The position numbers and the translations under genes were made by a program. The notes below the pieces were generated by a model that did not search any database, was not told the DNA's origin, and saw only the letters and a program-made list of their open reading frames with translations. From assembly GCF_900129125.1 (NCBI RefSeq), contig NZ_FQVJ01000031.1, positions 1 through 44,209 of the forward strand: a DNA stretch of 44,209 bases, given 5' to 3'. Below are positions 730 to 32,920 of the stretch, piece by piece. The first letter of the stretch is position 1. Every line of letters begins with the position of its first letter. The DNA comes from Acidocella aminolytica 101 = DSM 11237. GTDB taxonomy: Bacteria > Pseudomonadota > Alphaproteobacteria > Acetobacterales > Acetobacteraceae.

Positions 730-747
730 TTGTTTCGTACTAAACAA
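730..747. promoter_or_regulatory. Operator copy 1, TTGT-N3-GTAC-N3-ACAA
   Basis: The 18-mer TTGTTTCGTACTAAACAA is an interrupted palindrome (TTGT/ACAA arms around GTAC). Close copies lie at 1847, 18302 and 32903. On the minus strand it overlaps the -10 box of the promoter for 404-721, a position suited to a repressor blocking polymerase. The binding protein is unknown. Confidence 0.7.
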
Positions 748-789
748 TTACCTCTATTCGAGGTAGCTAGTCAAGCTATCAATGCTATC
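745..789 (-). promoter_or_regulatory. Leftward promoter with CTATC half-sites
   Basis: On the minus strand TTGACT (769-774) is followed, 17-18 bp on, by GTAATT/TAATTG (745-751). Directly upstream of the -35 box two GATAG motifs (CTATC on the plus strand at 776 and 785) are spaced 9 bp. The operator 730-747 overlaps the -10. Nearly the same arrangement occurs at 1862-1911 and 32854-32920. Confidence 0.65.
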
Positions 790-805
790 ATTTCTATAAA
801 AAATA

Positions 806-823
806 GCGGGGATTTCTCCCCGC
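806..823 (-). terminator. Rho-independent terminator of gene 830-1381
   Basis: A perfect 7-bp stem, GCGGGGA with TCCCCGC, around a 4-nt loop. On the minus strand it is followed by TATTTTTTAT, a good U-tract. It begins 7 bp after the stop codon of the leftward gene, separating that gene from the promoter of 404-721. Confidence 0.85.
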
Positions 824-829
824 TTTGTC

Positions 830-1381
830 TTAGCGTGCAGCGCAATGCGTTCTATGGAGAGCTTGAAAAAACTCGCTCTCAAGATCGCGGGAGGGGTTGG
901 CTAAAAAGCGCTGTTTATATGTCGCCGCCACCTCGTCAATCTCAAGATCAGCACCAGGGAAGCCCTTAGCGGTCAGCCGGTCATGGACGCGGCGCATAAG
1001 CGCACCCGAAAACTCGCGGCGGCAAAAGCTGTAGCCGTAGAAGAAACGCACCAACTTTGCCCCCTCGGGTTGGGGGTTGTGTGCCGGCTGGCAGCAACCC
1101 TTCTGGCCTAGCGTTCCGCGATCTTCAGCGACAATGGCGGAGCCGTCCGGTAACAGCCAGTTGTCAACGCGGTATTCCATGTCGATCGAGCAGTCAAAGC
1201 GGGTGGAGCTATAGGATTGCACCACCTCATCCACCAGCGAGGCAAGCGGGCCGTCAACCCATGAGACATTAAGCGAGCCGCCAGCAATCCGCACGGAAAA
1301 CTTGATGCCTGGAAATTTCTTCTTGAGGGCGGCGCGGACCAGCTTAGCGGTTGCGGCGGGTTTGATATAATCAGCGTCCAT
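830..1381 (-). CDS. LPD29-domain protein
   Basis: A 183-residue protein from the ATG at 1381, chosen because GGAG lies 8 nt upstream; a longer reading from 1456 begins inside the -35 box. Residues about 4-70 match the pattern of large polyvalent-protein-associated domain 29: an 'AKLVRAALKKKFP' helix, then FSVR, GGS and SWVDGP. LPD29 is found alone or fused in polyvalent proteins of phages and conjugative elements, and its function is unsettled; such proteins are often thought to protect incoming DNA. The domain call is by recall of the pattern, not by search. It has its own promoter and terminator. Confidence 0.75.
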   Translation of the reverse strand: MDADYIKPAATAKLVRAALKKKFPGIKFSVRIAGGSLNVSWVDGPLASLVDEVVQSYSSTRFDCSIDMEYRVDNWLLPDGSAIVAEDRGTLGQKGCCQPAHNPQPEGAKLVRFFYGYSFCRREFSGALMRRVHDRLTAKGFPGADLEIDEVAATYKQRFLANPSRDLESEFFQALHRTHCAAR

Positions 1382-1389
1382 ATTCTTAG

Positions 1390-1420
1390 CTCCATGCCCC
1401 TGAGACCCCGAGGCGCGGGT
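1390..1420. repeat. 31-bp leader repeat, copy A
   Basis: Thirty of 31 bases match 3588-3618. In both places the repeat lies just upstream of a leftward start codon and supplies the GGAG ribosome-binding site at one end, so it is a duplicated 5' leader rather than a mobile element. Confidence 0.8.
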
Positions 1421-1426
1421 AAATCT

Positions 1427-1470
1427 CTGATACATCGTTTTGAAGTATCTAGTCAAGCTATCTATGATAG
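1427..1470 (-). promoter_or_regulatory. Leftward promoter of the LPD29 gene with CTATC-TAT-GATAG palindrome
   Basis: On the minus strand the 13-bp palindrome CTATC-N3-GATAG (1458-1470) is followed one base later by TTGACT (1451-1456) and, at 17-18 bp, by GTATCA/TATCAG (1427-1433). Unlike the promoters at 745 and 1862 it lacks the TTGT-GTAC-ACAA operator. Confidence 0.6.
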
Positions 1471-1487
1471 CTCAACTAGAAAAAAAA

Positions 1488-1811
1488 TTATTCGCAAATT
1501 AGGTGGGCGCGCCCATGGTTCTTGCCGCCGCATGAGCATTCGCACTTGAAGCCCTTTGCCTCAGTGCAACGGGCATCGCAGGCATGGGCGGTGCGGAAAC
1601 CTGCAACGCGGGAAGCTTGCGCGCGCATCCCGGAGCAGGACGGGCAGCGCGTATCATATCCGGCTTCAACCTTGCGGCCCGTTTCGGTCTCGCGTTCGTA
1701 GCGCGGAACGCTGCGCCCATATCCCACGGGCACCATGCGGGAATCATATTCCCGCGCCCATACGCGCCCGCAAGCCTTGTTTCCGCAACGGAAAATAAAG
1801 CGGGTTTTCAT
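1488..1811 (-). CDS. Cysteine-rich putative zinc-binding protein
   Basis: A 107-residue protein with many cysteines in pairs: CGNKAC near the N-terminus, CPSC in the middle, then CDARC and a CECSCGGKNHG block near the C-terminus. The last block is a motif I recall from many small phage and plasmid proteins; these spacings suggest two zinc-ribbon-like knuckles. The central part is rich in charged residues, with no membrane segment. A promoter (1862-1889) and operator (1847-1864) lie upstream. Target and function are unknown, and DNA or RNA binding is only inferred from the zinc knuckles. Confidence 0.7.
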   Translation of the reverse strand: MKTRFIFRCGNKACGRVWAREYDSRMVPVGYGRSVPRYERETETGRKVEAGYDTRCPSCSGMRAQASRVAGFRTAHACDARCTEAKGFKCECSCGGKNHGRAHLICE

Positions 1812-1846
1812 GCTGCAAACTCCATAGCTGGATTTTTCGGGGGGTG

Positions 1847-1864
1847 TTGTTTCGTACCATACAA
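1847..1864. promoter_or_regulatory. Operator copy 2, TTGT-N3-GTAC-N3-ACAA
   Basis: TTGTTTCGTACCATACAA, identical to the copy at 32903. It overlaps the last bases of the minus-strand -10 box for gene 1488-1811. Confidence 0.75.
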
Positions 1865-1911
1865 ATACCCGCTATCGTGGCTATGTCAACTATCCATAAT
1901 ATCCATGATAG
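1862..1911 (-). promoter_or_regulatory. Leftward promoter with CTATC/GATAG sites
   Basis: On the minus strand TTGACA (1884-1889) is followed 16 bp later by TATTTG (1862-1867). CTATC motifs on the plus strand at 1872 and 1890 are 18 bp apart, and a further TATC-CAT-GATAG palindrome (1900-1911) lies in the same 9-bp register. The GATAG copy at 1890-1894 directly touches the -35 box. Confidence 0.65.
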
Positions 1912-2167
1912 CTAATAATTCCGATAAATCCCAACTTCACAACCGCGAGATTGAGAGCATTCGCAAGCCCGCGGTTAAAACCAGGCGCCCCAAACCAGGC
2001 CCTCCGCTCCCCTGGCATAAGTCCACCGCCGCACCGCGACCCCGCCCCCCACGCCAGAGAGAAAAGCCCTCACACGCTATAGGAACAGAAACACCCTCCC
2101 CGTAGGTTGCCCGCTGATGTTGACGCAAACGGCAAATATGGAGGCGCCGCCATGATGTTTTGTTAAC

Positions 2168-2420
2168 TGTAACCCGCCCCGGTTACAGTTTTGGTTACTA
2201 AAAAACGCTGTGTTTTCAGCGTTGTAACCAATGTAACCAATGTAACCACGGGGAACCCCACACACGAACAACCCACCGTTTCATGCGGTGGGTGTTGTGT
2301 ATGTGGTTACATTGGTTACACGCGCGGCTTTTATATATATATGTTATTGAAATATATATATAAATAAGGCTCTAAGGCTGTAACCAAGGCTGTAACCAAG
2401 GGCGTAACCAGCCCGTAACC
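2168..2420. other. Candidate replication origin: GTAACC iterons around an AT-rich block
   Basis: GTAACC or its complement occurs 12 times: plus at 2169, 2224, 2233, 2242, 2380, 2392, 2404 and 2415; minus at 2181, 2193, 2305 and 2314. The groups are regularly spaced, 9 bp for 2224-2242 and for 2305-2314, and 11-12 bp for 2380-2415. Between the last two groups lies a run of about 45 bp that is almost pure A/T (2328-2368), suited to strand opening. An 8-bp stem (2271-2293) and a 9-bp inverted repeat of the iteron itself (2168-2186) lie inside. Iterons plus an AT-rich block is the classic plan of plasmid and phage origins. The initiator is not proven. Confidence 0.6.
2271..2293. repeat. Hairpin within the candidate origin
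   Basis: ACCCACCG pairs perfectly with CGGTGGGT around a 7-nt loop. It separates two groups of GTAACC motifs. There is no T-run, so it is not a typical terminator. Confidence 0.7.
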
Positions 2421-2526
2421 AAGCCGGAAACCGATTTTAAAGACCCTACAGGGCATCTTGTTGGTTTCGGCTACCATCCCACCGGAAGCTTGTTTCAAGG
2501 CATCACAGCCGCAGGAGATTGACCGC

Positions 2527-3096
2527 ATGACCATAAGAGAGACCGTTCATACCGTTGCCCGGCAGACCATGAAACCGCGCCCTGAACCTGCCAAGCGGGT
2601 GCGCGCCACTTCAGAGCGGAAATTGCACAATGTTGACGTTGTGATTGATCGCTGCGGAGCGGAGCGAATTGATAGCGGCGTTATGGCGCTGCACCGCAAC
2701 GGCTCTCTAACCGATTCAGACCTGCATGCAGCAGAACGGTTTTACGCTGATTATGCGCTTGCGGTGCATGGTGCGCGCGACAGCGAGAAAACCGGAGGGG
2801 GTGGAAGCCCTGACAGCATGGGGGTGGCCGTCATCCACGCATCCGCCGCACTGACAGACGCAATCGAGGCGGTGGGAAGTTACGGGAAGGCTATCCTTGT
2901 TGCGTTTGTCGTGGACGGCCTATCCCTAGCTAAGATCGCGCAATCAAGGGGCGAAAATAGGCAAGTCCTTACCGGAATTGTGATTTCCACAATTAAGCGG
3001 CTGAGCGATCATTACTATGCGGTTGATAACCGTCCGCGTTTTCCAATGAAGCGAGCGCGGAGCGTTCAGAAGCAGTTAGCATCCCTAAAAGCGTAA
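2527..3096 (+). CDS. Putative HTH DNA-binding protein
   Basis: A 189-residue protein from the ATG at 2527, preceded by AGGAG 10 nt upstream; an upstream TTG at 2458 lacks a site and would run into the iteron region. The N-terminus is very basic. Residues about 115-165 form a helix-rich block ending in 'LSLAKIAQSRGENRQVLTG', which looks like a helix-turn-helix. It is the only rightward gene beside the iterons, so an initiator or a regulator of the origin are both possible. I do not recognise the family. Its last 104 bases overlap the opposed gene 2993-3313. Confidence 0.6.
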   Translation: MTIRETVHTVARQTMKPRPEPAKRVRATSERKLHNVDVVIDRCGAERIDSGVMALHRNGSLTDSDLHAAERFYADYALAVHGARDSEKTGGGGSPDSMGVAVIHASAALTDAIEAVGSYGKAILVAFVVDGLSLAKIAQSRGENRQVLTGIVISTIKRLSDHYYAVDNRPRFPMKRARSVQKQLASLKA

Positions 3097-3313
3097 CGAT
3101 TGCTTGCATTTCACCGGAAACCGCATGAACACCCGTCGCCATGCGAGAGATGGAGAGCAGCCGGGCTTTGAAGGTCCGGCGGTCCCCAAGCGCGCCAAGC
3201 GCGCGAGCAAGCGCCGATTGAGCGCCTTCACCAAATAACTTTTGCAGCTTCACGTAAAACTCTGCCGCGCTATCAGAACGCGCGGTTTTGCTGCGGTTTG
3301 GATGGTTTGCCAT
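2993..3313 (-). CDS. Small HTH-like regulator
   Basis: A 106-residue protein with a basic N-terminus and an Ala/Leu-rich helical middle. The stretch around 'LSISRMATGVHAVSGEM' resembles the recognition-helix end of XRE/Cro-type domains ('R...G...VSG.M'). GAGAGG stands just upstream of the ATG. Its 3' end overlaps the 3' end of 2527-3096 by 104 bp on the other strand, so the two converge and their transcripts are antisense to each other. A Cro-like role is a guess. Confidence 0.5.
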   Translation of the reverse strand: MANHPNRSKTARSDSAAEFYVKLQKLFGEGAQSALARALGALGDRRTFKARLLSISRMATGVHAVSGEMQAIVTLLGMLTASERSALASLENADGYQPHSNDRSAA

Positions 3314-3357
3314 GGTTCACCTCTCCCCGGATTACCCGCCGGGGAACGGGGAAGGGG

Positions 3358-3579
3358 TTAATGGTGCAGATACAGCGCGAGCAACGCGCCGATTGCAGCG
3401 GGAATGATGCCGCCGCCAATAATGGCGGTGAAAAGCGGGAGCCACGGGTGCGCGCGTAACTGCTCGTTAATCATGCGGGTTTCCGCGTTGATCTTGCTTG
3501 TTTCCGCGTTCAGGCGGGTGGTTTCCGCAAAAAGCTTGTCAATCTCAAGCGTGCGTAGATCGTCAGTTGAAGCGCTCAT
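3358..3579 (-). CDS. Small coiled-coil protein with C-terminal membrane anchor
   Basis: A 73-residue protein. Residues about 10-42 carry repeated '(L/I)NAET' units typical of a short coiled coil; residues about 46-70 form one hydrophobic, Gly/Ala-rich membrane segment ending in HH. GGAG lies 11 nt upstream of the ATG. Similar small proteins are common in phages and are usually unnamed. A holin role is possible, but the gene lies far from the lysis genes and in the early region. The 31-bp leader repeat lies directly upstream. Confidence 0.65.
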   Translation of the reverse strand: MSASTDDLRTLEIDKLFAETTRLNAETSKINAETRMINEQLRAHPWLPLFTAIIGGGIIPAAIGALLALYLHH

Positions 3580-3587
3580 TTCGTAAT

Positions 3588-3618
3588 CTCCATGCCCCTG
3601 AAACCCCGAGGCGCGGGT
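3588..3618. repeat. 31-bp leader repeat, copy B
   Basis: Second copy of the leader found at 1390-1420, with one mismatch. It again lies directly before a leftward start codon and gives the GGAG ribosome-binding site. Confidence 0.8.
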
Positions 3619-3625
3619 GGTTGTA

Positions 3626-3817
3626 TCATTGTGCTACCTCATTATGAGGCATGCCGTCAAGCGGCAATTCAACCGGCAGAACGTCAGCGACGCGGGCGCA
3701 CGTCATGATTCCGCCGTCAAGCGATATGCCGAATACAGCCGGTTCAGATTGCACCGCGTAGTGACGCGCAACACGAAACACAATGGACGGGTGACGGGGG
3801 AGGGAAAAAGCTTTCAT
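3626..3817 (-). CDS. Hypothetical small protein
   Basis: A 63-residue protein from the ATG at 3817; an upstream GTG at 3844 would lengthen it by 9 residues. No clear strong ribosome-binding site for either start and no family recognised. Predicted soluble, with beta-type sequence. It lies in the leftward operon between 3857-4159 and 3358-3579. Two GATAG motifs 9 bp apart (3837 and 3846) lie just upstream of its start. Confidence 0.5.
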   Translation of the reverse strand: MKAFSLPRHPSIVFRVARHYAVQSEPAVFGISLDGGIMTCARVADVLPVELPLDGMPHNEVAQ

Positions 3818-3856
3818 GGTTAGCGGTTCTTTCAGTGATAGCACAGATAGAGTTTT

Positions 3857-4159
3857 TTAAAGGGAAGTCTCAAGGCCGGTCATAGAGCGGAATGTGTCGC
3901 GCAACGCTTCTGCATAAATGCCGGTTTCAATACCGCGCGGCTGAAGGTCTAGGTTGCGCAAGCGCCAAGCCTCAAGCGTGTATGTGTCGCTAGGCTGCAA
4001 CGTCACCCGAAAGCGGTTAATGCCACGCACCGCTAATCGAGCGGGAAGGGTAAAGCTTAGGCTATCGCTGCCTGAGACCAGATTCTTAGCGCCGGTCATG
4101 GTCAAAAATTTATGGCCGCCAAGCTGGCTAAGGATTGTGAGGGCAACTTGCTTTGACAT
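3857..4159 (-). CDS. Conserved phage protein of unknown function
   Basis: A 100-residue protein; the ATG at 4159 is chosen because GGAG lies 8 nt upstream. The sequence follows a pattern I recall from many phage and prophage proteins: 'LGGHKFLTMTGAKN', then 'LSFTLPA', 'GINRFRVTLQPSDTY', and a C-terminal 'TGLET'. The function of that family is not known to me. The leftward gene 4173-4394 ends 14 bp upstream, so the two are likely co-transcribed from the promoter at 4423-4452. Confidence 0.75.
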   Translation of the reverse strand: MSKQVALTILSQLGGHKFLTMTGAKNLVSGSDSLSFTLPARLAVRGINRFRVTLQPSDTYTLEAWRLRNLDLQPRGIETGIYAEALRDTFRSMTGLETSL

Positions 4160-4172
4160 TTCGTGATCTCCG

Positions 4173-4394
4173 TTAAAGGCCAAGGGCCGCAAGCAATTCA
4201 TCATCCGTGATCTCAGGGAGGGGACCGTCTTCAGGAAGATTTAAGAATTTCTGTTCATCTGCAATTTCACGTTCGTATTGGCGAACCTTCACGGAGCGCA
4301 TTGTGATTTCCTGGGGGGTTTTCGCCGCAGCTAGGCGGCATAGCTCATGGGAAAGGCCAACCTGCAAGGCTTCAAGGTGGGTTGTGTCGGTCAT
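4173..4394 (-). CDS. Hypothetical small acidic protein
   Basis: A 73-residue protein, first gene of the leftward operon, with GGAG 7 nt before the ATG. It is helical and acidic toward the C-terminus ('PEITDDELLAALGL'). Small acidic phage proteins expressed first are often anti-host factors, but nothing in the sequence proves that here. Confidence 0.6.
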   Translation of the reverse strand: MTDTTHLEALQVGLSHELCRLAAAKTPQEITMRSVKVRQYEREIADEQKFLNLPEDGPLPEITDDELLAALGL

Positions 4395-4422
4395 GGTAGG
4401 CTCCGTAATTCGTGTTGAACCG

Positions 4423-4465
4423 TCATTACGTCGTTTTGAGGTGGTGTGTCAACTATCATGGATAG
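4423..4465 (-). promoter_or_regulatory. Main leftward promoter with CTATC-ATG-GATAG operator
   Basis: On the minus strand the perfect 13-bp palindrome CTATC-N3-GATAG (4453-4465) abuts TTGACA (4447-4452), with GTAATG/TAATGA 17-18 bp downstream (4423-4429). It should drive 4394 leftward. No TTGT-GTAC-ACAA site is present here. Confidence 0.65.
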
Positions 4466-4751
4466 CAATGATATCAAAAAAATAACGCGGCATTGCGGAG
4501 GGTGGCACGGCCAGGGATTGCCCGGCCTTCCTGGCATTGCACGGGGCCAGCAAAAGGCCAGGGATTGCAGGGGTTGCGGCGCGAGAGTGGAGCGAAGCGA
4601 AACGGAGCGGCGCAACAGCTTCCGTGCGTTTTTTTGATCGCACAATACATATATGCGCGCGCGAAAATTTGGCCGCGCAAGCCGGGGAGGGGAGGGAGGG
4701 CCGAAAAATGCGAAAATTCGCAAAAAATCGCAGAAATCCGCCATTTCTAAG

Positions 4752-4809
4752 CTATCAAAGATAATTCGGCTATCAGTTGTAGCCACGCTATCACGAATAT
4801 CATGGATAG
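4752..4809. repeat. GCTATC array with 18-bp period (possible centromere/operator)
   Basis: CTATC occurs at 4752, 4770 and 4788, each preceded by G and exactly 18 bp apart; TATC-ATG-GATAG follows in the next 9-bp register (4797-4809). The same motif is found at promoters (776, 1458, 1872, 4453, 32863) and before parA (34735). No -35 box touches this array, so a role other than promoter control, such as a parS-like centromere, is possible. Confidence 0.6.
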
Positions 4810-5400
4810 GCGGCGCGCCAGCGCTGCGGAGCGTTGCCGCGCCGCTGCTTCTGAACGTGTGCGAGTGCGCAAAAACGCGCGCCAATAAAAAACACAGAAC
4901 GTTTATTATGGAAAGTCGGGCCAAAAATCGCCCTATATCGCTTGAAAAAACAAAGCTCAATTTTGCGCGTCAATCGCGCTGCAATGTCATGTGTTGCGCT
5001 GTATTTTGAGTATTTGCCGCGCGTTGCGTTGCGTTGCGTTGCGCTTGAATACGCTGAAAAACAAGGAAAATCCTCACGTTTTGATCGCATACGTTGCAAT
5101 AGCGTTGCGTTGCGGTTTACGAACAAACAAGCCGAAAATAACACGCAAACCCGCAGAAAACCTAGCTTTTTTGACGATGTACTATAATAACCATCTGTTT
5201 AGTAGAGAATTGACCCCCCCCATACCCTTTTTTTCGAGTATGAGCGGCGTTGGCCTTCCGAAAACCACTGAGGGGAAAATGGGGATTGGGGCCGATTAGG
5301 AATGCTCCCGCATCCGTGAAACACCCCTCTTGCCGGGCAATCTAGCCCGTAGGCGCCACGGCGCGGCGGAGGCAGGCCACGGTAGCCGCAGCCACCCGGT

Positions 5401-5454
5401 AGCCTTCTAAGGCTTTGCAGGGCGTTCCTGGGGCATATGCTCTAGGCGCCCTGC
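5401..5454. repeat. Strong stem-loops upstream of the terminase genes
   Basis: AGCCTT/AAGGCT form a tight inverted repeat (5401-5414). Directly after it GCAGGGCG (5417-5424) pairs perfectly with CGCCCTGC (5447-5454), with an inner CCT/AGG pairing and the palindrome GCATATGC in the loop. No T-run follows on either strand. The position before the small terminase gene would suit a packaging site or a structured RNA; neither is proven. Confidence 0.5.
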
Positions 5455-5473
5455 CGCAGCAAAAAAAATCTAA

Positions 5474-5492
5474 GTATTCCAAGTTGGAGTAT
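5474..5492. promoter_or_regulatory. Repressor-type palindrome, late side
   Basis: The 19-mer GTATTCCAAGTTGGAGTAT is an imperfect palindrome matching 15 of 19 bases with 37820-37838, which lies just upstream of the XRE repressor gene. It stands about 100 bp before the first late gene, so repressor binding here could silence lytic transcription. Confidence 0.55.
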
Positions 5493-5593
5493 AGGAACGC
5501 GAAACAGGAAGCCGTATCACTTTTTCATCATCGCGGTGGTGCGCCAGACAGAAAGACGGCGCACCGCCCCACCATCTGAACCGTGAGGCCATT

Positions 5594-6013
5594 ATGAGAA
5601 CCCGCGCAATTCTATTCGTTCGCGGCGATGTGATAGCGCGCGGCTCGGCCCGGCGGGTTGTGTGGGGCGTTACCTCTGACCGCCTAGTTGCGTTCCCGTT
5701 AATTCCTTCGGACGGCGCGACATATCGCAACGCTGTGTCTTTTTCAGAGATTTCGGACGTTGCGGCTATGGGGTGCGGCAAAGGTGATCTAGCGATACGT
5801 CCGGCGGTGGTGGCTTCGGCTTCCACCGCCGGGTGGAAAAAGGTTGGTGAGATAACAGCGAGCCGCCTTCAAGAATTAGAGAGCGCCGTTAAGCGGGCCG
5901 TGGTGGAGGAATCCACGGTTGCCCGTTGGAGCAAGGCGCCCAAAAAGGTTAAGAATCATGCAAGGCGTGAAAATCTCCGCACGGCAGAAGGCCGCGTTTA
6001 TCGCAGCGCTTAG
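5594..6013 (+). CDS. Hypothetical protein before the terminase genes
   Basis: A 139-residue protein with GAGG about 8 nt before the ATG. The first 60 residues are beta-rich, and the stretch 'GEITASRLQELESAVKRAV' is a helix. This outline is faintly like PemK/MazF-type proteins, but no key motif is clear and I would not name it so. The C-terminal 30 residues overlap the terminase small subunit gene by 56 bp in another frame. It is the first gene of the late operon. Confidence 0.5.
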   Translation: MRTRAILFVRGDVIARGSARRVVWGVTSDRLVAFPLIPSDGATYRNAVSFSEISDVAAMGCGKGDLAIRPAVVASASTAGWKKVGEITASRLQELESAVKRAVVEESTVARWSKAPKKVKNHARRENLRTAEGRVYRSA

Positions 6014-6407
6014 CCGGGAGCCGAATGTTGCTGCCGCGTGCAAAGCGGCCAAGGTGGGCCGGTCTGCAATCTACGCCCTGAAGCGAGAGAATGAAGAATT
6101 TTCGGAGCTTTGGGATGAGGTGATGCAGACCGCCGTTGACGATCTTGAGGGCGAAGCCTTCAACCTTGCGCGTCACGGCACGCTTGAGCCGGTGGTAAGC
6201 GCGGGCAAGCTGATTTTTGACCCTGACACTCGCAAGCCGATGTTTGTGAAAAAGGTTATTCCCGCGCTGATTTTGCGCCTTCTGACTGCGCACCGGCCCG
6301 AGAAGTACGCGCCGCAGCCGTCCGGGCAAGCGGCGCTACCGTTTGAGCTTACCCCTGACCCTGAACCCACGCCGGATGAAGCCGGGCCGTCAAAGCCCCT
6401 GCTCTAA
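5958..6407 (+). CDS. terS: Terminase small subunit
   Basis: A 149-residue protein from the ATG at 5958 (AAGG 8 nt upstream). Residues about 5-45 form a helix-turn-helix ('AAFIAALSREPNVAAACKAAKVGRSAIYALK') followed by 'ELWDEVMQTAVDDLEGEAFNLA' and, near residue 95, 'LRLLTAHRPEKYAP'. That order is typical of small terminase subunits of tailed phages, which bind the packaging site and present DNA to the large subunit. The large subunit follows two genes on. The tail after residue 110 is Pro/Glu-rich. Confidence 0.8.
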   Translation: MQGVKISARQKAAFIAALSREPNVAAACKAAKVGRSAIYALKRENEEFSELWDEVMQTAVDDLEGEAFNLARHGTLEPVVSAGKLIFDPDTRKPMFVKKVIPALILRLLTAHRPEKYAPQPSGQAALPFELTPDPEPTPDEAGPSKPLL

Positions 6408-6432
6408 CTCCGGCGCAACCGGAGTTATCGAA

Positions 6433-6813
6433 ATGGCGAAATTTAAAGCAGGCGACAAGGTTTATTGGGCTGGCACCCGAAAGGGCGGGACTCCGGGTGG
6501 GATGTGGACGGAGGGTAAAGCTTATGCGGTCAATTCCGACGACAGCATTACCGTTTTTGACGATGACGGCAGGCGGTGGTGGGCCGGGGTTAGAGGTGCC
6601 GTCAACGAGTTTAGCCTAACACCACAGGAACCAGTCCCCGCGCGGGCGAAGGCGCCAGCGTTAGTCACCCCGGCGGGATTAGCCGCAATCCAGGCTTGGC
6701 TTGATGAAAGTGGGGCGGAACACCTCTCCCCTGGCGACCGCTGCGCCGCCGATCTCATGGACGCGCTCGGAGTCACATGGCGCAAGCGCAGCTATGAAGC
6801 CGCGTTGAAGTAA
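6433..6813 (+). CDS. Hypothetical protein between the terminase genes
   Basis: A 126-residue protein from the ATG at 6433 with GGAG 8 nt upstream. The first 60 residues look like a small SH3-like beta barrel ('FKAGDKVYWAG', 'MWTEGKAYAV', 'ITVFDDDGRRWW'), followed by a Pro/Ala linker and a helical C-terminus. Such folds are seen in small nucleic-acid-binding phage proteins, but I do not recognise the family. Confidence 0.65.
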   Translation: MAKFKAGDKVYWAGTRKGGTPGGMWTEGKAYAVNSDDSITVFDDDGRRWWAGVRGAVNEFSLTPQEPVPARAKAPALVTPAGLAAIQAWLDESGAEHLSPGDRCAADLMDALGVTWRKRSYEAALK

Positions 6814-6855
6814 TCGCCGCGAGGGCCAACTCGTCGCGGCTCTCACGGAATAATA

Positions 6856-8172
6856 ATGGCAAGAATCCGACCACTACCACCACCTGAACAGATCAGCTTA
6901 ACCCATAAACAATCAAATATATATCAATGGGGTTTTCAGCCGGAGGCTCGTTTCAGGACGGCGGTATGTGGGCGGCGCTTCGGCAAGACTTACCTTGCCG
7001 CGCGCGAAATGAAGCGGGCCGCGCAACTCGCGGCAAAATGGTCCGTTCATCCTGACAATGAAATTTGGTACGGCGCGCCCACCTTCAAGCAGGCAAAGCG
7101 CGTTTTCTGGCCTCGTCTCAAGCGTGCAATTCCGGCGCATTGGGTAGAACACAAAAACGAAAACGAGTGCCATCTAACGACTGTGGCCGGGCATACGCTG
7201 CGAATTGTAGGGCTTGACCTATATGACAATTTGCGCGGGTCCGGCCTTTTCTTTTTCATTGGCGACGAATGGGCGGACGTTCCACCGCAGGCGTGGATTG
7301 AAGTTGTTTCGCCCATGCTTTCGACGGCGCACGGGCACTCTCTGAAAATTGGCACGCCCAAGGGCTTTGACCATTTTTATGACGAGTACGTTTTAGGCCA
7401 GGAAGGCGGAGAGGTAGATCATAAGTCCTGGCATTACACCACCCTTCAAGGTGGCAACGTGCCGCAAGCAGAGCTTGAACGCGCCAAGCGCATTTTGGAT
7501 GCGCGGACGTATGAGCAGGAATATGAAGCGGGTTTCGTAACCTATAGTGGGCGCGTCATTTACGCTTTTGACCGCAAGCTTCATGTGCAAGATTGCCCAT
7601 ATAAGCCGGAGCTTCCGGTTTATATTGGTATGGACTTCAACCTGAATCCCATGTCTGCAACCGTGTGGCAGGAATATGGTGGTGCGATCAGGCAGATTGA
7701 CGAAATTATCCTGCCCACCTCCAACACAGACGACATGAGCGACGTTATAGCGCATCGGTATGGGCGGCCATCCTTTACGCCGGGCGAGATTGAGGTGGGT
7801 CATATTACGGTTTACCCGGACCCTGCCGGAGCGCAAAGCCGCACCAGCGCGCAAGGCCGTACAGACATTTCTATTCTGAGGGGGCGCGGTTTTAGCGTCA
7901 TGGCAATGTCTAAAGCGCCCCTTATCCGTGATCGCATCACAGAGACAAACGCCCGCTTCCGCAACGCGGCGGGCGATATTCGCGCCTATGTTGACCCGTG
8001 CTGCCTTCAAAGCATCAAGGCTTATGAAAAGCAAACATACGTTGAAGGCACGAATGACCCCGACAAAAAGAGCGGGTTTGACCATATCGTTGATGCAACG
8101 GGTTACTTCATCTATGGCCGCTTTGCTTACAAACCCGCCCGCTTTAACCAGGGCTTCAATATAGGGCGGTAG
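6856..8172 (+). CDS. terL: Terminase large subunit
   Basis: A 438-residue packaging motor. The N-terminal ATPase has a Walker A motif, CGRRFGKT (38-45), and a Walker B, FFFIGDE (132-138), with coupling motif GTPKG (166-170). The C-terminal RNase H-like nuclease begins at 'YIGMDFN' (Asp260) and includes 'YPDPAG' and 'FDHIVDATGYF' near the end. It cuts and translocates phage DNA into the prohead through the portal. Length is normal. It lies in the usual order terS, terL, portal. Confidence 0.95.
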   Translation: MARIRPLPPPEQISLTHKQSNIYQWGFQPEARFRTAVCGRRFGKTYLAAREMKRAAQLAAKWSVHPDNEIWYGAPTFKQAKRVFWPRLKRAIPAHWVEHKNENECHLTTVAGHTLRIVGLDLYDNLRGSGLFFFIGDEWADVPPQAWIEVVSPMLSTAHGHSLKIGTPKGFDHFYDEYVLGQEGGEVDHKSWHYTTLQGGNVPQAELERAKRILDARTYEQEYEAGFVTYSGRVIYAFDRKLHVQDCPYKPELPVYIGMDFNLNPMSATVWQEYGGAIRQIDEIILPTSNTDDMSDVIAHRYGRPSFTPGEIEVGHITVYPDPAGAQSRTSAQGRTDISILRGRGFSVMAMSKAPLIRDRITETNARFRNAAGDIRAYVDPCCLQSIKAYEKQTYVEGTNDPDKKSGFDHIVDATGYFIYGRFAYKPARFNQGFNIGR

Positions 8173-8173
8173 C

Positions 8174-8350
8174 ATGCTGACATTTTGGGATTACGCGCAT
8201 GAGGCGGAGCAAGAGTTTTTAAGCTACCTGCGCCGTGCGTTGTGGGCTTGCTTTTGGCTGTTTGTGGCGTGTGTGGCGCTTTCCGAGGCACCGCAACCGC
8301 CGCGTGGCACAGCATTGCCGCCGGTTGTCCATCATGACGGGAACGGTTGA
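8174..8350 (+). CDS. Small single-span membrane protein
   Basis: A 58-residue ORF that fills the gap between terL and the portal gene. AGGGCGG lies just before the ATG and the TGA is 3 bp short of the portal ATG. Residues about 21-37 (ALWACFWLFVACVAL) form one membrane segment; the rest is charged at the N-terminus and Pro-rich at the C-terminus. Function unknown; the tight packing in the operon supports translation. Confidence 0.6.
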   Translation: MLTFWDYAHEAEQEFLSYLRRALWACFWLFVACVALSEAPQPPRGTALPPVVHHDGNG

Positions 8351-8352
8351 GC

Positions 8353-9855: not shown

Positions 9856-10115
9856 GTGACGGGCGCACGCTTTGGGGGTTGGCGATGGAAGCCCCCTTGT
9901 GGCCTACGGGGCATGTGAACAATGCGCCCCCTGAAAGGCTTATGGATTTCCTGCGTGAGCATTTTCGCAATCCGCAGGACTTTACCCTTGGCGATTTGAC
10001 GGCGCTTGGCGGCCTTGTGTCGCGGGCTATCCACCTCATCAAAAACCCGCCGCCGGATGGCCCGGCGCCCCCGCCTGACGGCGGCAGCGCGGCGCCCATG
10101 ACCCTCGCGGCATAG
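9852..10115 (+). CDS. Hypothetical protein after the portal
   Basis: An 87-residue protein whose ATG overlaps the portal stop (ATGA), so it is translationally coupled. The N-terminal two thirds look folded, and the last 25 residues are Pro/Gly/Ala-rich. I do not recognise it. A head-assembly accessory role follows only from position. Confidence 0.6.
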   Translation: MSDGRTLWGLAMEAPLWPTGHVNNAPPERLMDFLREHFRNPQDFTLGDLTALGGLVSRAIHLIKNPPPDGPAPPPDGGSAAPMTLAA

Positions 10116-10135
10116 CAGAGCAGGAAATAAGACGC

Positions 10136-10750: not shown

Positions 10751-10778
10751 CCTGCGCAACCATCCACCAACACAACGC

Positions 10779-10800
10779 GCCCCGGTCTCCGGGGCTTTTT
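10779..10800 (+). terminator. Terminator-like hairpin between scaffold and capsid genes
   Basis: GCCCCGG and CCGGGGC form a perfect 7-bp stem with a 3-nt loop, followed by TTTTTATTT. Located 13 bp before the capsid ATG, it would cut or stabilise transcripts so that scaffold and coat levels differ. Confidence 0.75.
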
Positions 10801-10812
10801 ATTTGAGGCCCT

Positions 10813-12664: not shown

Positions 12665-12667
12665 CGG

Positions 12668-12991: not shown

Positions 12992-12993
12992 CC

Positions 12994-14965: not shown

Positions 14966-14975
14966 CCGAGGTTTT

Positions 14976-15131: not shown

Positions 15132-15134
15132 TAA

Positions 15135-16715: not shown

Positions 16716-16735
16716 TTTCTCAACTTAACTCAGGG

Positions 16736-16755: not shown

Positions 16756-16760
16756 AGTGA

Positions 16761-17186: not shown

Positions 17187-17189
17187 CCC

Positions 17190-18204: not shown

Positions 18205-18205
18205 T

Positions 18206-18319
18206 TTACCAACTCACATAAATCACGCCAAGCAAAAACGCCCACAAGATCGCAACAAAGGCCAGCTTGGCCCCTAATAAAAACCAGCCAAAAACGCTGC
18301 GTTGTTTCGTACCAAACAA
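18206..18319 (-). CDS. Possible antisense mini-ORF: 37-residue membrane protein
   Basis: On the minus strand a TTG at 18319, preceded by GGGAGAG about 8 nt upstream, opens 37 codons ending TAA. The product has a basic start (MFGTKQR) and one long hydrophobic stretch (FGWFLLGAKLAFVAILWAFLLGVIYV). It fills the only real gap in the tail operon, and its first codons are the operator copy at 18302-18319. It could be an antisense regulator locus, a toxin-like or superinfection-exclusion membrane peptide, or chance. Confidence 0.35.
   Translation of the reverse strand: MFGTKQRSVFGWFLLGAKLAFVAILWAFLLGVIYVSW
18302..18319. promoter_or_regulatory. Operator copy 3, inside the tail operon
   Basis: TTGTTTCGTACCAAACAA keeps the TTGT/GTAC/ACAA scheme. 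It lies 12 bp before the tape-measure start, with no clear -35/-10 on the plus strand. A bound protein could block rightward readthrough or control a leftward transcript. Confidence 0.65.
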
Positions 18320-18331
18320 AAGGACTCTCCC

Positions 18332-20284
18332 TTGATTGATGCCTACAAGATTGGCGTAAGCATAGCGCTGACCAACGGCGTCTCGCAAGTTCTTCATGTA
18401 ATTCAGCGTGACGTGATGGGGCTGAAGAAATCGGTTGATTTCACAACCGGCAGTCTTGACCGCATGAAGATTGCGGCGGCTGGCTTTGGCGCTGTGATGT
18501 TGGGGGGCGGCGCTCTTACGGCAATGACAAAGCTTGTGGATAAGGGGCAAGCTTTCGTTCAGCAGCAATCAGCCATGAAGCAGGCGGGCATGTCGCAGGC
18601 GCAAGTTGCGCAGGCTACCGCGACGGCGTGGCGCATGACGCAAACCGTCATGACCTCCAACGCCACCGATAACCTGAAGCTACTTCAGGACTTGAAAAAC
18701 ACGCTTGGCAGCATGAATGAGGCCGTTTCGGTTTCAAACCCCATGGGCCGCGTGGTTGCCGTTCTTGGGAATTTGACCGGCAAGCCCTCCGAAGGCGAAG
18801 GCTACGCCCTGGCAAAGTTTTTAGATCAGAGCGGGCGCTTAGTTGACCCGCAGACCGGGGAAATCAGCCCGGCCAATATGCTGAAGTGGGCGCGCATTGC
18901 TGAAGGCATTGCCGCCGCCACGAATGCCCGCGTTGACCCGCGCCAAATGCTCAATTTTCAGGTTGGCGCCAAGGCGGCTGGCTCACAGCTATCAGAACAA
19001 GGGTTTCTTGATTTTGTCCCTACGCTTCTAGCGAACGGCGGTTCCAAGGCGGGCACCTGGCTAGGCTCTCTTGAAGCGCAAATGTTGGGGGGCATTCAAT
19101 TTTATTCGCAATCGGTCCGCTCCTTTGAGGGAATTGGCCTCTTGGACCCGCGCAAGGTTCACAAGGGCGGTGGCGGGCGTTTCGCCATTGGGGATGGCGC
19201 ATGGCAACAATCGGACCTTTTGCGACATGACCCGGCAAAATGGGTTTGGGACGTTCTTATTCCAGACCTCAAAAAGCACGGCTACAAAACGATAGACCAA
19301 CAGGTTAAATTCCTTCAGCACACCGGATTACGGCAGACCGTTTCCGGGTTGCTGGTTGAGTTGCTTCGCAATGAAACAGCCGACAAGCGAGACATTAAAA
19401 ATGTTGGGACGGCGACAAGCGTAGATCAATACAAGATTATGCAAAACACGTCGCCAACGGCGCAGCTAGATGCGTTTAACCAAGCGTGGAATAATTTGTT
19501 GACCGCCTTGGGTTCCCCCATGGTTGGAACGGCCTATCACATGCTTGACCGTGTAACGGCTGAAATCAACAAGCTTGGAGCGTGGGCGGCGGCGCATCCG
19601 AAAGACATTCTTGCCATAGAGAAAATGGTTGCCGCTATCGCCGGTATTACAGTGGTTATGGGCAGCGCTGCGGTGGTGGGTGCGGCTGTAACTGCCTTGG
19701 GCGCCCTAGCGGCTCCCACGGGCCTCCTAGCCCTCGCGGCGGGCATAGCAGCGCTAGGCGACGCCTTCCCAAAAATTCCCAAGTGGCTGATTCACATGGC
19801 GGAGGGCGCAGCGGTAGGGGGCGCGGCTGGCGCCACCGGGGGCGCTTTTGTTGGTGGCGTGGGCGCTGCCCCAGGTGCCGTTGTGGGGTCTATGGTGGGC
19901 GCTGGGGTGGCTGGTGCTGATGAGGTTGGCAAGTGGCTTGCTCATGTCATCATTGGCGCCCAAACGGAACAAAAAGCAGCCCCACCGGCCCATTGGATTA
20001 CTAAACGCGAAAAAAACGGTGACTTGATTTTTTCGGCACCGCCGCAACCCACGGCGCCCCCCACAATTTCGCCAACGGCTCCGGGTGTAGGTTTTAGACC
20101 TCAGTATGTGCCCCCCGCGAAGGATAACAGCACAACGCAGGTTCACACGGTAATCAAGCTAGATGGCCGCGTTTTGGCGCGACACGTCAGCGAACATCAA
20201 GCCCGTGCCGCTAACCGCCCGCCGGCATCCGGCACAGCCTTTGACCCCAGCGCCGCGCCACTCTACCCCAGCAGCGGGAGTTAA
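18332..20284 (+). CDS. Tail tape measure protein
   Basis: A 650-residue protein from the TTG at 18332, chosen for the AAAAGGA site 7-8 nt upstream; a longer reading from 18302 begins inside the operator. It has hydrophobic segments at about 40-60 and 435-485, an Ala/Gly-rich region (about 490-540, GAAVGGAAGATGGAFVGG) and a Pro-rich end. Such proteins set tail length; at roughly 1.5 Å per residue this would give a tail near 100 nm (inference). It follows the chaperone pair, as expected. Confidence 0.85.
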   Translation: MIDAYKIGVSIALTNGVSQVLHVIQRDVMGLKKSVDFTTGSLDRMKIAAAGFGAVMLGGGALTAMTKLVDKGQAFVQQQSAMKQAGMSQAQVAQATATAWRMTQTVMTSNATDNLKLLQDLKNTLGSMNEAVSVSNPMGRVVAVLGNLTGKPSEGEGYALAKFLDQSGRLVDPQTGEISPANMLKWARIAEGIAAATNARVDPRQMLNFQVGAKAAGSQLSEQGFLDFVPTLLANGGSKAGTWLGSLEAQMLGGIQFYSQSVRSFEGIGLLDPRKVHKGGGGRFAIGDGAWQQSDLLRHDPAKWVWDVLIPDLKKHGYKTIDQQVKFLQHTGLRQTVSGLLVELLRNETADKRDIKNVGTATSVDQYKIMQNTSPTAQLDAFNQAWNNLLTALGSPMVGTAYHMLDRVTAEINKLGAWAAAHPKDILAIEKMVAAIAGITVVMGSAAVVGAAVTALGALAAPTGLLALAAGIAALGDAFPKIPKWLIHMAEGAAVGGAAGATGGAFVGGVGAAPGAVVGSMVGAGVAGADEVGKWLAHVIIGAQTEQKAAPPAHWITKREKNGDLIFSAPPQPTAPPTISPTAPGVGFRPQYVPPAKDNSTTQVHTVIKLDGRVLARHVSEHQARAANRPPASGTAFDPSAAPLYPSSGS

Positions 20285-30387: not shown

Positions 30388-30390
30388 TAT

Positions 30391-31314: not shown

Positions 31315-31321
31315 GGCGGAC

Positions 31322-31717
31322 ATGAAACTCAAACACCTTCAGGGCATCGTTGGCGCCTTCCTGGCCGTAGCTGTGTGCGTTGGCCTAAGCGCCTGCGCTC
31401 ACCCTCCGGCAGCCCTGTCCGTTTCTAATGTTCCGGCGCCGGTTACAGCGCTAATGACAACCTATATGGCGGCGGATGCAGGGGCGATGACCTACGAAGC
31501 GCTCCCAGCGTGCGGCGCAGGCCAGACGCCATGTAAAACTGCCGCCACCGTGGCGGAAATCAAGGCCCTGGATGACGCGGCCTGGAAAGCTATCACGCCC
31601 GTAGTGAAGGCGGCGGAGACTGGCCAGAGCGTGACAAACGCGGCTGAAACCTCCGCAGCGCAGGCCGCCGTTTCGGCCTTTTCGTCTTATCTCTCACAAC
31701 ATGGAGTTAAAAACTGA
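31322..31717 (+). CDS. Putative phage lipoprotein
   Basis: A 131-residue protein with a signal peptide and a lipobox (VGLSAC) at about 20-25, so Cys25 is probably lipidated. The mature part is Ala/Thr-rich, with a later Cys pair. In this lysis cluster it might act as an outer-membrane spanin subunit, though it is longer than most. Confidence 0.65.
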   Translation: MKLKHLQGIVGAFLAVAVCVGLSACAHPPAALSVSNVPAPVTALMTTYMAADAGAMTYEALPACGAGQTPCKTAATVAEIKALDDAAWKAITPVVKAAETGQSVTNAAETSAAQAAVSAFSSYLSQHGVKN

Positions 31718-32010
31718 TGCTTGCCGCCTTCCTGGCAGCTTTGCAGGTAATCTTGCAAGACCTGCCCGAGTTCGCCGCAATCTGGCCAACCCTGGAAAAG
31801 ACCATCTCAACGGGGGCTGAGCCGACCCCGGCCGACCTTGCCAAAATTTGGGCCGCCGCCGCCGCTGTGCATGAGCGCGTTCAGTCTGGCGGCGCTTCCG
31901 CCGACCCCGCCGCCATTGCTTCAGCAGCCGTCACAGACGCGGCGAGCGCGGCTTCCGGCACTCTAGCGGCCCCGCAGGAAGCCCAAACGCCCGCGACTCC
32001 CGTAGGGTAG
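31717..32010 (+). CDS. Hypothetical Ala-rich protein at the end of the late operon
   Basis: A 97-residue protein coupled to the lipoprotein gene by a 1-bp overlap. The N-terminal half is helical with a weak hydrophobic start; the rest is Ala/Pro-rich and likely disordered. A partner of the preceding lipoprotein is possible. Not recognised. Confidence 0.55.
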   Translation: MLAAFLAALQVILQDLPEFAAIWPTLEKTISTGAEPTPADLAKIWAAAAAVHERVQSGGASADPAAIASAAVTDAASAASGTLAAPQEAQTPATPVG

Positions 32011-32041
32011 TCAAGTCTAAAATATTACTATTAGGAATAAA

Positions 32042-32070
32042 AAAGGCCGTCCCCACCCTGGACGGCCTTT
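32042..32070. terminator. Strong bidirectional terminator closing the late operon
   Basis: GGCCGTCC pairs perfectly with GGACGGCC, extended by AAA/TTT, around a 7-nt loop; CTCTTTTT follows on the plus strand and a T-run on the minus strand. It ends late transcription 30 bp after the last late gene. Confidence 0.9.
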
Positions 32071-32145
32071 CTCTTTTTGAGGTATGCGCGAATGACCGCC
32101 GTTTGGCGGCGATTCGGAGAGTGACATTGAGCTAGAAAAATCGAA

Positions 32146-32163
32146 GGCCGCCCGAAGGCGGCC
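32146..32163 (-). terminator. GGCCGCC hairpin with UUCG-type loop (leftward)
   Basis: A perfect 7-bp stem, GGCCGCC/GGCGGCC, whose minus-strand loop is TTCG, followed on that strand by TTCGATTTTTC. It could end a leftward RNA antisense to the leader of the Rep-like gene. No gene is seen in 32011-32298. Confidence 0.5.
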
Positions 32164-32298
32164 CATGAAAGAGATTTCATCCTAACTTGCCGGGAAGGAT
32201 GACCTCTCTTTGCACATTCCGGGACCATACGCAACACCTTTCGGTGCGCGGATTTGTGCGCCTTGGGCTTCGGGCGCCTCCGATAATGGGGGCAGAAG

Positions 32299-32835
32299 AT
32301 GAAGCGCGAAAAGATTTTCGGCTTGCCGACCGGCAGGCCACTAGACCGGAACGCAAAGGCCCGGATTATGGCCTATGCAGCGGCATGGTCCGCACGCCAA
32401 CGCCAGCCAGGACAACACACCGGCCCATTGACGCGGGCTTATATGGACGTTTTGCGCGCCCTCCTTTGGGGCTTCCACAACGCTAAAACCGGCGCCTGCT
32501 TTCCCGGCTACGACGCTATTGCAAAGCATGCCCGGTGCCACCGCGACACAGTGCGCAAGGCAATTCGCATGCTTGAATTGTCGGGGCTGTTAACCTGGGT
32601 GCATCGCCTCCGCCGCGTTCCTGGCGCCGTGCTGCGGACAAGCAACGGTTACAGCTTCCGTGACCCCTCCCCCGCGCCGCAACCCCGCGAGAATCCTACT
32701 AAGGCGGAAAATTCGCCCGGAACCCAAAACCAAGATTCTTCTAATATAAAGATCGTGGTTTTAGACCCGGCAAACCGGCTTGACGCAGCCCTTATTAGGC
32801 TCGGGAAAAGCGCCGGAGCGTTGTCACCGGCATAA
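32299..32835 (+). CDS. Rep-like HTH replication protein
   Basis: A 178-residue protein with GGGGGCAGAAG before the ATG. 'LPTGRPLDRNAKARIMAYAAAW..RQRQPGQHTGPLTRAYMDVLRALLWGFHNAKTGACFPGYDAIAKHARCHRDTVRKAIRMLELSGLLTW' is a winged HTH that I recall from alphaproteobacterial plasmids and prophages, where it is named helix-turn-helix or replication protein A. It is a good candidate to bind the phage-plasmid origin. The C-terminal 60 residues are Pro/Asn-rich. Confidence 0.7.
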   Translation: MKREKIFGLPTGRPLDRNAKARIMAYAAAWSARQRQPGQHTGPLTRAYMDVLRALLWGFHNAKTGACFPGYDAIAKHARCHRDTVRKAIRMLELSGLLTWVHRLRRVPGAVLRTSNGYSFRDPSPAPQPRENPTKAENSPGTQNQDSSNIKIVVLDPANRLDAALIRLGKSAGALSPA

Positions 32836-32853
32836 CCTCCCCGCTATTACAAG

Positions 32854-32904
32854 CTATCAGTGCTATCATCGATAGTTGACATATCTTAGCTATCATGTTT
32901 AATT
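32854..32904 (+). promoter_or_regulatory. Rightward promoter with CTATC-ATC-GATAG site
   Basis: CTATC at 32854 and 32863 (9 bp apart), with the full palindrome CTATC-N3-GATAG (32863-32875) touching TTGACA (32876-32881); TTTAAT follows 16 bp on (32898-32903). The operator 32903-32920 overlaps the -10 edge. This is the clearest of the three matching promoters. Confidence 0.75.
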
Positions 32905-32920
32905 GTTTCGTACCATACAA
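32903..32920. promoter_or_regulatory. Operator copy 4, TTGT-N3-GTAC-N3-ACAA
   Basis: TTGTTTCGTACCATACAA, identical to 1847-1864. It covers the transcription start region of the SprT-like gene and ends 10 bp before its ATG. Confidence 0.75.

Follow-up and report, generated by a model that had tools for sequence, protein, structure and literature searches.

The 18-bp palindrome of an Acidocella phage contig as a probable operator of the phage's own SprT-like protein

The contig NZ_FQVJ01000031.1 of Acidocella aminolytica 101 = DSM 11237 (44,209 nucleotides, analysed in its entirety and referred to as the window) encodes phage structural genes and carries four copies of an 18-bp palindrome, TTGT-N3-GTAC-N3-ACAA, one of which is located directly before a gene for a SprT-like protein (sprT). 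The question raised by this locus is which protein reads the palindrome. Judged from sequence comparisons, the probability is roughly 0.86 that the palindrome serves as an operator for the SprT-like protein encoded by the phage itself; this protein would read it through residues of its own and likely represses itself. SprT is the best candidate for the binder because sprT is the gene common to palindrome-bearing elements wherever anything is shared, and because the SprT residues 129, 131 and 203 change together with the operator bases 1, 4 and 7 (residue numbers refer to the 238-amino-acid window protein starting at position 32937). The original prediction had named sprT as a controlled gene only and had sought the binder among the proteins at 2527, 2993, 37415, 37918 and 33679. 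None of these is supported for the palindrome, and SprT itself is the better candidate.

The four palindromes are exact and located where they had been reported, at 730-747 (TTGTTTCGTACTAAACAA), 1847-1864, 18302-18319 (TTGTTTCGTACCAAACAA) and 32903-32920 (TTGTTTCGTACCATACAA), and the copies at 1847 and 32903 are indeed identical base for base. When up to two mismatches are allowed, the pattern is found six times in the window, compared to a mean of 0.68 and a maximum of 3 in 100 shuffles; the two additional matches, at 14832 and 25696, have two mismatches each and may be due to chance. In the entire host assembly (3,964,820 bp, 109 contigs), the exact palindrome is present in these four copies alone, and a reversed control pattern is found 0 times. 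All four are located a short distance upstream of a start codon. The predicted SprT operator at 32903 ends 16 bp before the sprT start (10 bp with the in-frame ATG at 32931 as the start), and those at 1847 and 730 end 35 bp and 8 bp before the starts of the leftward genes 1488-1811(-) and 404-721(-), respectively. The fourth, predicted at 18302, is present ahead of the tape-measure gene as claimed, at 13 or 19 bp from its start codon (18333 or 18339), and no promoter is evident there by eye. Together, these observations support the view that the palindrome is an operator-like element dispersed over the phage.

When viral contigs were scanned for the 18-mer, 15 stretches were returned, of which three come from the window's own contig, leaving 12 others; by estimate, a few matches are expected by chance in so large a viral collection. 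Six of these 12 (L002, L003, L004, L005, L011 and L014) share sprT alone with the window (tblastn, E<=1e-4), and in these 35 to 290 bp separate the 18-mer from one end of sprT. In the other six, no gene common with the window was found at the same threshold in the parts compared. The stretches are partly redundant, as L003, L004, L005 and L014 belong to a single phage type (99.7-100% identity), to which the pieces L009, L010 and L013 are identical, L007 and L012 are about 85% alike in places, and L015 may be a chance match. One imperfect form of the 18-mer, TTGTTTCGTACCATACAA, recurs with its asymmetric right half unchanged at 1847 and 32903 of the window, at 6193 and 9488 of L003, at 3878 of L002 and at 12918 of L011, and the phages with this identical 18-mer share just SprT with the window within the parts compared.

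Starting from the protein, eight SprT relatives were found in phage records, and two of these have the palindrome before sprT, at 29 and 82 bp in one and at 29 bp in the other. In viral contigs, 159 stretches were confirmed by a profile search, and 80 SprT loci were kept; 18 of these have the exact pattern (including L027, which is the window, and four near-identical L003-type contigs) and more have it with one mismatch. Single-sequence viral scans for SprT gave four loci with L149 as query and 0 with L187. In bacterial genomes, 334 SprT stretches were confirmed and 80 kept, most of which have a palindrome in the same frame just upstream of the gene. Conservation in relatives had been named as the test on which the predicted regulon depends; this was assessed in distant relatives, and the claim was not refuted.

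The association of site and gene was computed with a rule that demands at least five of the six fixed bases (TG, G, C, CA) and at least seven of the nine palindromic pairs, and that leaves bases 1, 4, 5, 6, 7 and 9 free. Between -300 and +60 of sprT, a site is present in 107 of 183 loci, with 123 sites compared to 4.75 expected from the rest of the loci. The fractions are 60/81 for bacterial, 10/14 for plasmid, 33/81 for viral and 4/7 for phage-database loci. The 183 loci include near-identical ones, as well as L011 (found via the motif), L027 (the window) and L201 (added after its site had been seen), and their removal changes the count to 104 of 180; L202, which was read beside L201 and lacks such a site, and L203-L206 are outside the 183. 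The median distance of the best site to sprT is -36 (87 rows), and the operator occurs in variants such as TTGTATCGTACGATACAA, TTGTATTGTACAATACAA, TTGGATTGTACAATCCAA, TTGGTTTGTACAAACCAA and CTGTATCGTACGATACAG. In each of three complete replicons (16, 25 and 46 kb), allowing up to four mismatches yields a single site, upstream of sprT. In addition, 33 further sites of at least 18 bits were found elsewhere in 85 viral and phage loci (three near-identical loci left out), compared to 0 in copies shuffled by a simple block shuffle, so dispersed sites such as those of the window exist in other elements. Of these further sites, 14/33 lie within long open reading frames (ORFs), while 73% of random positions do.

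The sites were also sought in cellular genomes. A SprT profile match is present at E<=0.001 in 10 of 385 genomes of the host's class, the host included, and in 6 of 398 genomes of the phylum (profile A3), again with the host included and with few usable. The perfect-type palindrome TTGTWTCGTACGAWACAA is found in one of the 385 genomes, where it begins 28 bp ahead of the SprT start codon, and the reversed control gave 0; the host scored 0 because the variant of the window is imperfect. Another SprT gene of a class genome (L202) has no perfect-type site.

The bases that differ between operators follow the SprT protein. When mapped onto a tree of 87 SprT proteins, base 7 of the operator (C or T) changes 5 times, whereas 200 label shuffles gave 25.8 changes on average and never fewer than 21. 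Base 4 (G or not) changes 10 times, compared to a shuffle mean of 18.2 and a minimum of 13. Left out of this tree were loci without a site, proteins shorter than 180 amino acids, proteins more than 95% alike, and two sites judged to be background (those in L020 and L182). Host class, known for 44 rows, changes 12 times on the SprT tree compared to 21.4 in shuffles. In Pseudomonas elements, three operator types are present, each of which matches one of three SprT clades.

These data bear on the idea that a host transcription factor binds the palindrome, which would be in line with the occurrence of the same core in elements from several bacterial classes. This is very unlikely, given that no further exact copy is present in the host assembly, that the perfect type is absent from 384 of the 385 class genomes, its sole carrier having it at sprT, and that the three operator types within Pseudomonas follow the SprT clade. 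Also, on the same 44 rows, base 7 changes 2 times and host class 12 times, although the latter has eight states and the counts are not strictly comparable.

Individual SprT residues match individual operator bases. In terms of mutual information, residue 131 is the top column for base 4 (0.83, next column 0.46) and residue 203 for base 7 (0.81, followed by its neighbour 202 with 0.66). With T at base 4, residue 131 is Gln in 50, Asp in 3 and Pro in 1 (the window) of 54 rows; with G it is acidic in 16/16 (Glu 11, Asp 5) and with C it is Arg in 8/8. Mixed half-sites at base 4 are found as C/T with Gln (3) or Arg (2), as G/T with Gln, Glu or Asp (1 each) and as C/G with Asn (1). For base 7, C is accompanied by Lys (50) or Arg (1) at residue 203 and T by Arg in 31/31, while the mixed half-sites C/G (3), A/C (1) and C/T (1) all occur with Lys. 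Base 1 is related to residue 129, which is Thr in 52/53 rows with T/T and in 1/10 with C/C. Read on the opposite strand, the pairs at base 4 are Gln-A, Arg-G and Glu/Asp-C, which is a familiar preference of side chains for bases.

The same three residues stand out when changes along the branches of the tree are compared (172 branches, 210 columns). For base 4, residue 131 changes with it in 10 of 15 cases (p=1.6e-9, next column 5e-4); for base 7, residue 203 does so in 5 of 5 (p=5e-9, next column 1e-3), and for base 1, residue 129 in 8 of 22 (p=3e-6, next column 4e-4). The p values are hypergeometric with all branches treated alike, nominal across 210 columns and the five bases tested (1, 4, 5, 7 and 9), and obtained on a quick tree in which many branches are weakly supported (23 of 84 inner branches are starred). 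The rule was further applied to a held-out set of 28 new SprT proteins from related loci, kept after removal of those more than 90% alike to earlier ones. A site was found by the blind rule in 11 of the 28, one of which (L246) is doubtful. At base 7, Arg agrees in 6/6, and Lys agrees in both halves in 3/5 and in one half in the other two; at base 4, Gln agrees in 4/5 and in one half in the fifth, and Glu agrees in 3/3.

A different explanation of this co-variation is the shared ancestry of neighbouring DNA, in which case the association of site and gene would be real and the matching of residues and bases a by-product, a view that overlaps with binding by another regulator or by a host factor. 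Operator and gene are adjacent and inherited together, and there are few well-supported independent changes. Nevertheless, such hitch-hiking would raise the SprT columns alike, and thus the three standout columns count against it, as 3 of 210 columns lie two to five orders of magnitude away from the runner-up and are chemically sensible. In addition, the rule held on new, though related, loci, and we regard shared ancestry as an improbable cause of the pattern.

Several observations weigh against SprT as the reader of the palindrome. By the rule used, 76 of the 183 SprT loci have no site between -300 and +60; some of these have a site farther off or behind the gene and others have none (for example L109, L193 and L111), and the viral set, with a site in 33/81 loci, is weaker than the bacterial one. 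For operator bases 5 and 9, no SprT column stands out in the co-change test. A stricter test on independent pairs from well-supported branches, which is underpowered, gave same-way pairs in 2/2 for base 7 and residue 203, an average of 1.8/3 for G at base 4 and an acidic residue 131, and 1/2 for C at base 4 and Arg131; the remaining pairs do not differ, hardly any go the opposite way, and p is not below 0.05. Exceptions to the rule are L042 (Arg203 with C at base 7) and L141, L155 and L160 (Asp131 with T at base 4), and in the held-out set, L246 has Arg131 with T at base 4 at its doubtful site, while Asn and Gly at residue 131 are outside the rule. The window itself offers no confirmation of the base-4 rule, because its SprT has Pro131 instead of Gln and its operators are imperfect, with G at base 7 of the right half. 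Also, a partner protein that co-evolves with SprT could in principle be the binder.

Another possibility is that a different regulator encoded by these elements, of the helix-turn-helix (HTH), ribbon-helix-helix (RHH) or ParB type, binds the palindrome, and that sprT is its most conserved target. Palindromes are typical of HTH and RHH dimers, and the gene directly upstream of sprT in the window (32299-32835) encodes an HTH_36 protein, and weakly similar proteins (28-30% identity) are encoded directly before sprT on the plasmids Shinella p5 and Agrobacterium pAt4. On an IncN plasmid, ardK adjoins the SprT-like gene, and ArdK is reported to bind CUP elements (PMC6289460). Set against this, a relative of the HTH_36 protein was not found (E<=1e-3) on the complete IncX3 plasmid, although the site is present there, nor in 25.7 of the 35.2 kb of a site-bearing Methylomagnum plasmid. 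Binding by another regulator does not predict that three SprT columns co-change with three operator bases far above all other columns, and this alternative is considered unlikely.

If SprT is the reader, a symmetric dimer would very probably bind the palindrome and read it base by base. In each half-site, the loop after the metalloprotease core would read bases 1 and 4 through residues 129 and 131, while base 7 would be read by residue 203, directly ahead of the zinc ribbon; direct contact and dimer binding are inferred. As the site overlies the promoter end or the leader of sprT, self-repression is the most likely outcome: a SprT dimer over this region would block its own transcription, resulting in negative autoregulation. 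In an element that enters a SprT-free cell, sprT would be free, and a burst of SprT would follow until the site is filled. In the window, SprT would also hold down the early leftward genes 404-721 and 1488-1811 and perhaps act at the head of the tape-measure gene. Repression and timing are deduced purely from the position of the sites, and binding is the stronger side of the proposal.

The sprT-like gene (32937..33653, + strand) encodes 238 amino acids with an SprT domain that contains an HExxH motif and with a C-terminal zinc ribbon. The protein belongs to the SprT-like family, scoring 46.1 bits against PF10263 (curated cut-off 25.6) and 8.8e-25 against phrog_6361. Its metal site comprises H84, E85, H88 and the third His H103, kept in 114, 115, 115 and 115 of 115 aligned rows, respectively, and the CxxC...CxxC ribbon comprises C208, C211, C225 and C228, kept in 114, 114, 114 and 110 rows. 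In the protein of L037, outside these rows, some zinc-ribbon cysteines are lost, and L037, L044 and L056 are SprT loci with many weaker CGTACGACACA-like sites.

How does this protein compare to known systems? Spartan (SPRTN) is a DNA-dependent metalloprotease that binds DNA independently of sequence and has a role in cross-link repair. The window protein has the SprT fold that marks a Spartan-type protease (the fold comparison covered mostly model residues 2-158), but differs in the zinc ribbon that follows outside the match (model 6-136) and in that it is predicted to read a defined 18-bp sequence. An operator at the promoter of its own gene that co-varies with the protein, as in self-regulating DNA-binding proteins, is present as well. 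PepA/CarP combines metallopeptidase activity with DNA binding and gene regulation, and enzymes doubling as regulators are of a known kind; its fold is unrelated to that of SprT, and we know of no palindrome that co-evolves per element with regulators of the PepA/CarP type. The protein differs from ArdC of R388, in that its SprT domain is N-terminal and a zinc ribbon comes after it. A single-stranded DNA-binding domain ahead of the protease domain, as in ArdC, is absent, and there is no space for one because the SprT-like match starts at about residue 15 (29-129 of the 252-amino-acid ORF, which corresponds to about 15-115 of the 238-amino-acid protein). The third metal ligand is a glutamate in ArdC (PMC7213743), while it is His103 here, conserved in 115/115 rows.

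Mpr of the IncN (pKM101) and IncU (RA3) plasmids belongs to the same SprT-like family, and the IncN-typed plasmids compared have the palindrome at the start of the gene. The two RA3-like loci (pEIB202 and pBY3, a label assigned here) differ in that there is no site just upstream, where insertions lie. In a paper on RA3, the Mpr gene is listed among the genes of unassigned plasmid function, and the texts available on Mpr describe neither an operator nor DNA binding. Likewise, among the matches listed from the open-access PubMed Central literature, no description was found of an operator for, or of DNA reading by, SprT or Mpr proteins. The protein family and the name Mpr are already known; sequence reading by the SprT fold would be new, as far as seen.

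SprT-like or Mpr genes are matched on 2,623 of 72,556 plasmid records, of which 2,188 are typed conjugative and most come from Enterobacterales (Escherichia, Klebsiella, Enterobacter); another SprT query matched 2,621 records, and in 2,419 of these the match spans 80% or more of the query. Operators were sought in about 200 loci only, and these indicate that the same pair of protein and site, with its amino-acid-to-base code, is very probably carried by many unrelated phages and plasmids, and that SprT/Mpr proteins read the operator and probably regulate themselves. If so, a widespread plasmid gene would gain a likely and testable job as a DNA-reading regulator, the operator could be predicted from three SprT residues, and the metalloprotease fold would gain a mode of sequence-specific DNA recognition. 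It would also become testable why a Spartan-like protease centre persists in a DNA-reading regulator of mobile elements. A tentative answer, possible though rather doubtful, is that SprT/Mpr proteins are sequence-addressed, Spartan-like proteases that load on the palindrome via the Arg/Gln/Glu and Lys/Arg code. In this scenario SprT would limit itself at the site and cut proteins on the carrier's DNA, such as nucleoid or restriction proteins at entry, and many phages and plasmids would mark their own DNA for protein removal.

The palindrome shares its promoters in the window with a second element, CTATC/GATAG. The original prediction had placed this element beside the TTGAC box at three promoters, followed by a -10 box and the palindrome. 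The element is present at 776-789, 1890-1911 and 32863-32875, but three is an undercount, as the element adjoins TTGAC directly or with one base in between at 776, 1458, 1890, 4453 and 32863, five places in all. The order of GATAG, TTGAC, -10 box and palindrome can be seen by eye, but none of the claimed promoters is called when the strict sigma-70 consensus is used for a scan, and therefore the -10 boxes are unproven: between 600 and 5200, two others were called compared to 3.9 in shuffles, and between 32600 and 35000, where the sprT promoter was not called, two others compared to 1.5.

GATAG occurs 73 times in the window, compared to 37.7 expected, and CTATC-N3-GATAG with at most one mismatch occurs in 8 copies, compared to a mean of 0.13 in 30 simulated sequences. 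Exact palindromes are found at 1458..1470, one base from TTGAC and before 830-1381(-); at 4453..4465, abutting TTGACA and before 4173-4394(-); at 32863..32875, abutting TTGACA of the sprT promoter; and at 34735..34747, in the leader of a parA-like gene. Copies with one mismatch are found at 1899..1911, upstream of the -35 box of 1488-1811(-), at 3829..3841, and at 4752 and 4797 within a GATAG cluster (4752..4809), and two GATAG repeats are located at 776..789, upstream of TTGAC. Of the 6 copies of the exact 13-mer in the assembly, 4 are located on the 44-kb phage contig; a reversed control is found 2 times. In other viruses, the pattern CTATCNNNGATAGNTTGACA, which misses the window's own GATAG sites with spacing 0, matched 17 contigs, which is about chance by the estimated size of the collection. 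The early leftward gene 830-1381(-), which encodes an LPD29 domain, is preceded by a GATAG palindrome and has no SprT operator.

Because GATAG is a second element separate from the palindrome, two different binding proteins are likely, as had been proposed, and since both elements occur together at three promoters, joint control of these by SprT and a second, GATAG-binding protein is suggested. One candidate is the 112-amino-acid protein behind parA (33679..34017, - strand), which has no Pfam match, and the other is the HTH_19 (XRE-type) regulator at 37415..37963 (- strand). None of the 8 copies in the window is located before the XRE gene, and judged by position, the par-side protein may, with low confidence, be the likelier binder. 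No relative of it was found in plasmid records, and a viral-contig scan, which detects close relatives, returned the window alone.

The first 50 bases of the window are found again at 44114, 96 bases from the contig end (ends 1-96 / 44114-44209), and the contig is therefore probably a circular molecule of about 44.1 kb. In addition to the structural genes, it encodes an Erf-like annealing protein, a single-stranded DNA-binding protein, a helicase and a ParA-like partition ATPase of 219 amino acids (34017..34676, - strand; phrog_164 5.4e-30; Pfam VirC1, CbiA and MipZ). Given the circular contig, ParA and the HTH_36 gene, which is perhaps Rep-like, the window may be a phage-plasmid. Such an element could carry the palindromes as parS-like centromeres of a partition system, dispersed over the molecule, an idea favoured by the circularity, by the ParA-like gene and by the 18-mer, which we take to resemble a chromosomal parS half-site. 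However, no ParB-domain protein is present among the window proteins scanned with Pfam (part of the ORFs), the sites are tied to sprT across elements, and the 4-kb surroundings of sprT in the IncX3 and Nitrosomonas plasmids contain no annotated par gene. The parS reading of the palindrome is extremely improbable and was dropped in favour of SprT on the link between site and gene. The GATAG array in the parA leader, in contrast, may be a parS-like partition site.

The par genes of the window were also considered as close relatives of a Shinella par pair, which was rejected as the similarity is too weak: the ParA proteins share 27% identity over 118 columns, and the match between the 112-amino-acid proteins (15 residues, E 0.069) is not convincing. 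In the parA leaders of the Shinella (L105 19770-19860) and Agrobacterium (L210 3655-3750) plasmids, CATG-type repeats are present where the window has GATAG repeats. As for the genes behind the other predicted SprT operators, 404..721 (- strand, 105 amino acids) has no Pfam or PHROG match and 1488..1811 (- strand, 107 amino acids) matches phrog_6842 (0.00023), both being of unknown function, and the ORF at 18302..20284 (+ strand) encodes the tape-measure protein (phrog_28 1.3e-12). A megablast search of positions 1-20000 of the window against phage records gave no match, and hence no close relative of the phage.

Some plasmid and phage loci show further arrangements of the palindrome. Tandem operators before plasmid sprT genes are present as three copies in L110 (19908-19978) and two in L112 (4914-4949), and pLD209 has three tandem sites. 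In pEIB202 (L111 10414-10431), a perfect TTGGATTGTACAATCCAA is located 5.6 kb from the SprT-like (Mpr) gene, with resistance genes in between. L020, a Desulfofustis phage, and the viral contig L246 have a different palindrome in common, GTCTCGTGTTCACGACAC, located 78 bp before sprT, which is perhaps another operator type. In the IncX3 plasmid (L195 about 3770; L211 20085), a perfect 28-bp palindrome, ATTATCTGTATCGTACGATACAGATAAT, starts 219 bp before sprT and precedes a small gene that stands ahead of the SprT-like gene.

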